This document shows positions 28,791 through 30,466 of a stretch of 35,620 bases of DNA, piece after piece. The first letter of the stretch is position 1; each line of letters opens with the position of its first letter. The position numbers and the translations under genes are program-made. The stretch is from positions 1-35,620 of IMG/VR virus record IMGVR_UViG_3300042907_000884; one strand, 5' to 3'. Under the pieces are notes generated by a model that saw only the letters and a program-made list of their open reading frames with translations, did not search any database and was not told the origin of the DNA. Source of the DNA: a virus.

Positions 28791-29264
28791 TCAGTTGCCT
28801 CCCCCATGCCTCGCGTACCAGTGTGCGAGGAGTGCCGCGTCGGCCCGCCCGTCGTCCTTCACGCGGGCGAACAGCTCCGCGTGCCGCGGCCAGAGTCGAC
28901 TCGCCACCAGCCGGTGCTCGCCCTTGTCGCGGCTGACGCCGACGGCTTTCGTCCACGACTGCGGGCGGACCAGCGTCAGTGGGTATCCGAGGGCAGAGAT
29001 CACGCCCTCGACCAGACCGAAGCCGCGGCCGAAAGAGAATGCACTGGTCGCCCCGGAACCTTGAACGCCCTGGACGTGCTCGAGGACGACGTGGTTGGGC
29101 TGGAAGGGGAAGCCACGTTGCACGAGGTGGGCCAGCCGGGCCGCGTCGATCACACGCTTGCCGCGGACCTCCGCGACCGGCATATCGAGGACGTGGAGGC
29201 CCTGGTCGGAGACCAGGGCGAGAGCGCCGCTGAGGCCGGGGTCGATGCCGAGGATGATGGTCAT
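28791..29264 (-). CDS. RuvC-like Holliday junction resolvase
   Basis: 157 aa. Start ILGIDPGLSGALALV (Asp8), then VVLEHVQG (Glu62), and a final DDGRADAALLAHWYARHG (Asp138, Asp142) give the four acidic residues that bind two metals in RuvC-type nucleases. It cuts branched DNA during recombination or clears branches before packaging. ATGA overlap with the cytosine methyltransferase; AAGGTG is 5 bases upstream. Length is typical of the family. Confidence 0.88.
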   Translation of the reverse strand: MTIILGIDPGLSGALALVSDQGLHVLDMPVAEVRGKRVIDAARLAHLVQRGFPFQPNHVVLEHVQGVQGSGATSAFSFGRGFGLVEGVISALGYPLTLVRPQSWTKAVGVSRDKGEHRLVASRLWPRHAELFARVKDDGRADAALLAHWYARHGGGN

Positions 29265-30466
29265 TGCGTCACCTTGCTTTCAACCATTGCGATCCGCTCG
29301 CCAATCCACCGCATCACCGGCACGGCCATTGAGTTGCCCAGCGCCCGGTATCGCGGCCCGTCTGCGGCGGGCTTCTTCCGGTACTCCACCAGCGTGTAAT
29401 CGTCTTGGAAGCCTTGCAGCCGCTCGCACTCGCGGGGAGTGAGGCGGCGGACGGCCATTGCCTGCTGCACGCCGCAGTAGCCTTGGCCTGGCTTTCCGCC
29501 ACCGCTCGCAAGGGCGTGGGGCGGATCAACGTAATCGACCTCTCCACGCTGGTTTTCGCGGAACGCCACCACCGTCGTCGCCCGCGTGTCTCCTTGGTCA
29601 AAGCAGCTCATCGTCGGGCTGACTTCGCCCGGCACCCACGACTCGTCGTCGGTGGTGCTTTGGGCTCGCTTGGATTTGGTAAAGGCTAAGATGCCGCCTT
29701 GCTGGCCTTTGTCACAGTTGAGCGTCCGGGCGTGGTCGATGCAGTGTTCGCTGTTGGCTTGGTCGCCACCTCTCCAGATCGGCCCTTCACCAAGGGCGTT
29801 GAGCGGCTGCCCGTTGTCTCCGACAAATGTGTATTGCTGTTCTTTTGCGCTTGCCCCGCCAGTGCTTGCGCTAAGCGCTCTGGCAACTGACGCCCCCGTC
29901 TTTCCGCGCGTCGGAGGATTCCCGAACACGCTTTCGCGCTCAAATAGTACCGCTGCGGCACGTCGCCAGTCTCCAAGGTGGCCGACAACGAACACACGAC
30001 GGCGACGCTGGGCGACTCCATGCCATTGAGCGTCAAGAACGCGGTAAGCGAACCCATACCCGAGTTCGCCCAACGCCCCGAGGAAGGTTCCAAAATCCCG
30101 TCCTTTGCCGCTACTGAGGACGCCCGGCACGTTTTCCCAAACGATCCATTTGGGCTGCATGACAGCAGCAAGCTGGACGAATCGGAGGGCCAGGTTGCCA
30201 CGCGGGTCGGCCAATCCGCCTCGAAGCCCGGCAACGCTGAATGATTGGCATGGGGTTCCTCCGACCAAAAGCTCAACTGGGCCGTAGCCATTCAGCATCT
30301 CCTCTGTGATCTTGGTCATGTCGCCGACGTTCACAAACCCGAACCGCTGCTCAACAACGGCGGCCGGAAACGGTTCGATCTCGCTCGTCCACCGGCACTC
30401 CCACCCCAGCGGCTGCCAGGCGACGTGAGCCGCACCGATGCCATCGCACACGCTTGCGTAGTTCAT
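29261..30466 (-). CDS. C5-cytosine DNA methyltransferase
   Basis: 401 aa. Motif I SVCDGIGAAHVAW (6-18), motif IV GGTPCQSFS with catalytic Cys73, motif VI VWENVPGVLS (ENV 111-113), motif VIII QRRRR (153-157), and C-terminal RYRALGNSMAVPVM (motif X) are all present in order. The region about 190-330 between VIII and IX/X is the target-recognition domain. It transfers methyl from SAM to C5 of cytosine in double-stranded DNA; in phages this often protects against host restriction. GGAGGTG precedes the ATG and it overlaps the LexA-type gene. An additional ORF is nested in its +1 frame. Confidence 0.93.
   Translation of the reverse strand: MNYASVCDGIGAAHVAWQPLGWECRWTSEIEPFPAAVVEQRFGFVNVGDMTKITEEMLNGYGPVELLVGGTPCQSFSVAGLRGGLADPRGNLALRFVQLAAVMQPKWIVWENVPGVLSSGKGRDFGTFLGALGELGYGFAYRVLDAQWHGVAQRRRRVFVVGHLGDWRRAAAVLFERESVFGNPPTRGKTGASVARALSASTGGASAKEQQYTFVGDNGQPLNALGEGPIWRGGDQANSEHCIDHARTLNCDKGQQGGILAFTKSKRAQSTTDDESWVPGEVSPTMSCFDQGDTRATTVVAFRENQRGEVDYVDPPHALASGGGKPGQGYCGVQQAMAVRRLTPRECERLQGFQDDYTLVEYRKKPAADGPRYRALGNSMAVPVMRWIGERIAMVESKVTQ
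29686..30291 (-). CDS. 201-codon ORF nested in the +1 frame of the cytosine methyltransferase
   Basis: The frame starts at ATG 30291 inside codon 59 of the methyltransferase and ends at 29686. GAGGAG stands 7 bases before this ATG, a strong ribosome-binding site for an internal start. The protein has a plausible N-terminus (MATAQLSFWSEEPHANHSAL) and conserved-looking central parts (WANSGMGSLTAFLTLNGMES, TLETGDVPQRYYLSAKACSG, ILRRAERRGRQLPERLAQAL). I recall highly similar hypothetical proteins from other phages, always in this overlap, but cannot check. After about residue 150 it is Ser/Thr-rich and less convincing. Either a real overlapping gene or a by-product of conserved methyltransferase sequence. 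Confidence 0.45.
   Translation of the reverse strand: MATAQLSFWSEEPHANHSALPGFEADWPTRVATWPSDSSSLLLSCSPNGSFGKTCRASSVAAKDGILEPSSGRWANSGMGSLTAFLTLNGMESPSVAVVCSLSATLETGDVPQRYYLSAKACSGILRRAERRGRQLPERLAQALAGQAQKNSNTHLSETTGSRSTPLVKGRSGEVATKPTANTASTTPGRSTVTKASKAAS

Follow-up and report, generated by a model that had tools for sequence, protein, structure and literature searches.

We found that the C5 cytosine DNA methyltransferase gene of the analyzed phage sequence almost certainly contains a second gene, which lies wholly inside the methyltransferase gene on the same strand and in its +1 frame, and that a homologous frame is preserved by selection in the methyltransferase genes of many unrelated phages, including phage P1. 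The analyzed sequence (referred to as the window) is a 35,620-base IMG/VR virus record that holds one copy. We consider the dual-coding nature of the locus to be very well supported by the comparative sequence evidence, whereas translation of the second frame, its origin by overprinting and its function are inferred.

The nested open reading frame

The methyltransferase is encoded at 29261-30466 on the minus strand (401 aa; PF00145, E=1.2e-53; phrog_116, E=3e-89). The nested ORF occupies 29686-30291 on the same strand and counts 201 codons: it starts 175 nt after the methyltransferase start, in methyltransferase codon 59, and ends near codon 260. Its ATG (30289-30291) is preceded at a distance of 7 nt by a GAGGAG ribosome-binding site (30299-30304). 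The neighbours on the same strand include an MT-A70 adenine methyltransferase, a LexA-type DNA-binding domain just upstream and a terminase large subunit further downstream. The ORF, its ribosome-binding site and the possibility of a dual-coding locus had been put forward in an earlier note, and our results support that proposal, except that the full length of 201 codons was over-stated, as only about the first 148 codons are constrained (see below).

We first asked whether the nested ORF could be a chance long ORF, left open by GC-rich codon use, with an apparent conservation that is merely the shadow of the conserved methyltransferase. Many long spurious ORFs exist in the window, and resampling of synonymous codons from the gene's own usage left the interval open with P=0.02 and gave a +1 run of at least 201 codons with P=0.06, so that the length alone is weak evidence. 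However, the same test gave P of 0.001 or less for the interval in relatives of 38-40% GC (0/2000 for two of these loci, L056 and L062) and 0-0.4% in AT-rich relatives of the window-like clade. Moreover, of 29 control loci with unrelated PF00145 methyltransferases, the 11 that could be scored (the motif filter missed the rest) all lacked the motif and had a median longest +1 run of 73 codons. Together with the selection and conservation analyses described in the following, we regard the chance explanation as refuted, provided that the alignments are correct.

Conservation among relatives

A scan of viral contigs with the nested protein recovered 309 related stretches, of which the best 80 were read, and the nested proteins of P1 and of an Oscillospirales phage used as queries gave 160 more. 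In all 244 loci of these sets (four GenBank phages included), which cover three clades (window-like, P1-like and clostridial) at 38-66% GC, the nested ORF lies in the same +1 frame of an open methyltransferase frame. A genome scan yielded 80 prophage-type loci in Proteobacteria, Acidobacteria, Planctomycetes, Bacteroidetes, Actinobacteria and others, all inside methyltransferases, one of which (L359) is rearranged. Within the GenBank phages hits were found in Vibrio, Mycobacterium, Escherichia, Caulobacter, Pectobacterium, Streptococcus, Faecalibacterium, Akkermansia and other phages. In P1-like dmt the nested ORF encodes 164 aa, and of 529 plasmid records with a match, mostly P1-like, 518 cover at least 80% of the query. 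A standalone copy was sought in the scans of viral contigs, in the genome scan and in the phage and plasmid collections, and none was found among those examined. Candidates with an uninformative annotation (Oscillospirales and Monoglobales phages, CobraSix, MA12, JK004 and zjk6) all proved to overlap a methyltransferase.

To avoid a bias toward the nested frame, relatives were also collected via the methyltransferase. When selected by the whole methyltransferase protein, 40 of 42 relatives carried the nested domain, including all at 57% identity or more. The two exceptions (L286 and L287, from base 1501; 49% identity to the methyltransferase of the window) have a nested frame that is still open (165 codons) but a C-terminal domain that has diverged (LAPYFLTTRAGGGISRRLRSKG), possibly a derived or decaying version. 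When selected by the methyltransferase N-terminus, upstream of the overlap, the nested domain was present where the contig contained a complete methyltransferase; the exceptions were truncated contigs, one damaged gene (L558), and 17 P1-like genes in which an intein pushes the nested region beyond the scanned range. Several of the latter contigs also appeared in the nested-protein scan with an intact nested frame (for example, L493 and L097 come from one contig). In these P1-like phages (L493-L508 and L513; e.g. L493 from base 1801) the intein-like insertion in dmt lies just upstream of the nested gene and exactly at the catalytic cysteine of motif IV (GGTP/CFTAGHMVL...YILNGAVVHN/CQAFSIAG, slashes marking the boundaries), so the catalytic Cys would be the +1 residue of splicing. 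One further locus, L598, has a broken methyltransferase frame and an intact nested frame, which may be a sequencing error.

Selection on the nested frame

Disjoint pairs of sequences in the window-like, P1-like and clostridial clades were scored for changes that are synonymous or non-synonymous in each of the frames. For the nested frame dNN/dNS was 0.42 [0.33-0.55], 0.32 [0.19-0.52] and 0.29 [0.20-0.40] within the overlap, against 0.82, 0.88 and 0.94 in the same frame outside the overlap and 1.3-1.6 in the third frame. The dNN/dSN of the methyltransferase frame in the overlap was 0.2-0.35. The methyltransferase changes that are synonymous there but not in the nested frame fell from 0.50 to 0.17, from 0.10 to 0.04 and from 0.61 to 0.13, i.e. 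2.5- to 5-fold. In P1-like dmt the third codon position, normally the freest, varied less (0.053) than the first (0.075), which is the wobble position of the nested frame, the reverse of what is seen outside the overlap (0.176 against 0.084). The strong reduction of synonymous methyltransferase variation across about 450 nt could in principle also reflect a constraint on the nucleic acid (RNA structure, codon usage or a DNA site). Although RNA structure was not tested, we consider this very unlikely, because the constraint distinguishes between synonymous and non-synonymous changes of the nested frame, the nested wobble positions are the freest in P1-like dmt, and conservation is at the amino-acid level across very different GC contents.

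A sliding profile showed that synonymous variation drops across the nested ORF and recovers at its stop in the P1-like and clostridial clades, and at about codon 148 in the window-like clade. The constrained part in the window thus comprises codons 1-148 (29848-30291), with a synonymous methyltransferase variation of 0.03-0.19 against 0.28-0.38 just downstream. By segment, dNN/dNS in the window-like clade was 0.40 for codons 60-105 and 0.30 for codons 105-148, but selection could not be demonstrated in this way for the first 60 codons (0.7, wide intervals), where fewer synonymous changes were nevertheless observed, and the N-terminus therefore is only loosely constrained. The last 53 or so codons (149-201; 29686-29847) form an unconstrained run-on in this phage (dNN/dNS 0.94 [0.75-1.16], dSN 0.78), in line with a stop position that varies among relatives. 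Selection was strongest on the C-terminal domain (0.30, 0.36 and 0.17 in the three clades). This domain (residues 100-148; 29848-29994; LSxxLExxxxPxxYxLSxKACxGILRRAExRGKxLPxxLxxAL) contains nested residues that are invariant across window-like, P1-like and clostridial phages. Over this domain, 180 distinct nested sequences averaged 72% identity against 50% for the methyltransferase frame of the same bases, the nested frame being more conserved in 99.5% of 10,063 pairs. As that set was gathered by nested-frame motif, the excess is somewhat inflated, but the dNN/dNS test does not depend on that motif in the same way. Part of what looks like methyltransferase conservation near the target-recognition region is thus really conservation of another protein.

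Potential translation initiation

The arrangement of start sites favours internal initiation. In the clostridial clade an in-frame TGA is followed at once by a purine-rich Shine-Dalgarno-like stretch and then by a constant ATG, and in the window-like clade GGAGGAG, AAGGAGTGG or AAGGAATGG precedes the start although the encoded methyltransferase residues differ, and the start keeps its place. In the P1-like phages the start is located further downstream in the methyltransferase and is preceded by a stop, 1-2 codons before the first start, and by a Shine-Dalgarno that is only moderate. An alternative would be that the second frame is reached by ribosomal frameshifting from the methyltransferase N-terminus, to give a hybrid protein. 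Indeed, in one relative (L039) the methyltransferase N-terminal part lies in the nested frame, and in some loci (such as L160) the nested frame is open far upstream. Given the stops that precede the starts in the clostridial and P1-like clades we consider frameshifting very unlikely, although no search for a slippery site was made.

The predicted protein

The predicted product counts about 135-170 aa (201 in this phage because of the run-on tail) and consists of a probably disordered N-terminus rich in Ser/Thr/Pro (31%), followed by a small basic domain that is predicted to be helical (mean net charge +3.7 over 179 sequences). A first AF2 model of the full-length protein was mostly under 50 pLDDT, but AF2 with 106 sequences of the C-terminal domain gave three short helices, the last two above 90 pLDDT; a fold is predicted for only about 45 residues. 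No significant match was found among solved structures: the best PDB match, a chain of a transcription initiation complex, reached Z 3.1 and Foldseek against the PDB gave no significant hit. Likewise, no credible family was found in Pfam (none at E<=1), NCBIfam or PADLOC, and a lone PDB sequence hit at E=0.49 was dismissed. The only family that covers the nested protein is PHROG 16143 (139 positions), which matches residues 52-121 of the nested protein of the window (E=8.3e-10) and the nested proteins of several clades (3e-8 for L037, 9e-10 for L062 and 5e-5 for L081). It appears to be the same family, probably built from nested ORFs that were called as genes, and its label 'DNA methyltransferase' is probably a mistake caused by the overlap.

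Origin and putative role

PF00145 was found in 37 of 60 Pseudomonadota genomes but the nested profile in only 6 of 398, and we therefore infer that the methyltransferase is older and that the nested gene arose by overprinting in one phage methyltransferase subfamily. The same evolutionary logic, with an origin inferred from phylogenetic distribution, has been applied to tymovirus p69 within the replicase methyltransferase domain (PMC8227390), although that case concerns a plant RNA virus and an unrelated methyltransferase. Nested phage genes as such are known, as in phiX174 and in the lambda Rz/Rz1 spanin genes (spanin diversity is treated in PMC6139136), where Rz1 appears to be a fully nested same-strand gene with its own start, both frames seem to be selected and the arrangement is probably widespread in tailed phages. 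Rz1 is, however, a lysis lipoprotein in a lysis gene, whereas the gene reported here lies in a DNA-modification gene and has no membrane or lipoprotein features that we could see. We found no description of this particular overlap in the open-access literature that was searched, which did not include subscription papers and preprints, so that priority is not established. The P1 record (AF234173), in which Dmt is annotated as bifunctional, likewise carries no annotation of a nested gene.

The function that we tentatively consider most likely is that of an accessory of the modification step, which binds the co-expressed methyltransferase or its DNA and tunes or protects modification during infection. 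It is about equally likely that the function is unrelated to methylation (for example that of a regulator or an anti-host protein) and that the gene is tied to the methyltransferase only because it was born there. Overlapping genes cannot easily separate and known nested phage genes vary in function, and the functional link rests on co-occurrence, which overprinting alone would also produce. On the other hand, not one standalone copy was recovered among the loci examined, although phages recombine freely, and the gene was retained beside methyltransferases as different as the window-like, P1 Dmt and clostridial ones. CRISPRi in P1 scored the dmt genes as non-essential (PMC10695390), so an essential role in laboratory growth is unlikely. 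It remains possible that a hitherto undescribed and very widespread protein family exists only as a second frame inside C5 methyltransferase genes of tailed phages, from P1 to clostridial, mycobacterial, Caulobacter, Vibrio and Roseobacter phages, and acts as a dedicated partner or regulator of phage DNA modification, in which case these genes would encode a two-protein system in one stretch of DNA.

Database records of the nested protein

Standard annotation misses this gene family because it overlaps an obvious enzyme, and where one of the two frames is picked by chance the databases carry 'hypothetical' or mislabelled proteins. The earlier note had mentioned recurring hypothetical phage proteins in the same overlap, and these indeed exist. 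In vB_EcoM-813R1 (L249, 3001-3492) the nested protein is the annotated gene (WMM35488.1), because the methyltransferase frame is interrupted there. In Mycobacterium phage Thibault (L442:6539-8340, gp102-gp105) the methyltransferase is split by an HNH endonuclease insertion, and gp104 (81 aa, annotated as hypothetical) is the nested-frame protein, which remains open downstream of the insertion. Thibault gp104 was also recovered when the domain model was compared by Foldseek with viral models, next to BFVD A0A8S5LZA8 of Podoviridae sp. ctDgT26, a 521-aa protein annotated as methyltransferase that matches the nested C-terminal domain model in its annotated frame (41% identity) and may represent a frameshift or a true fusion.
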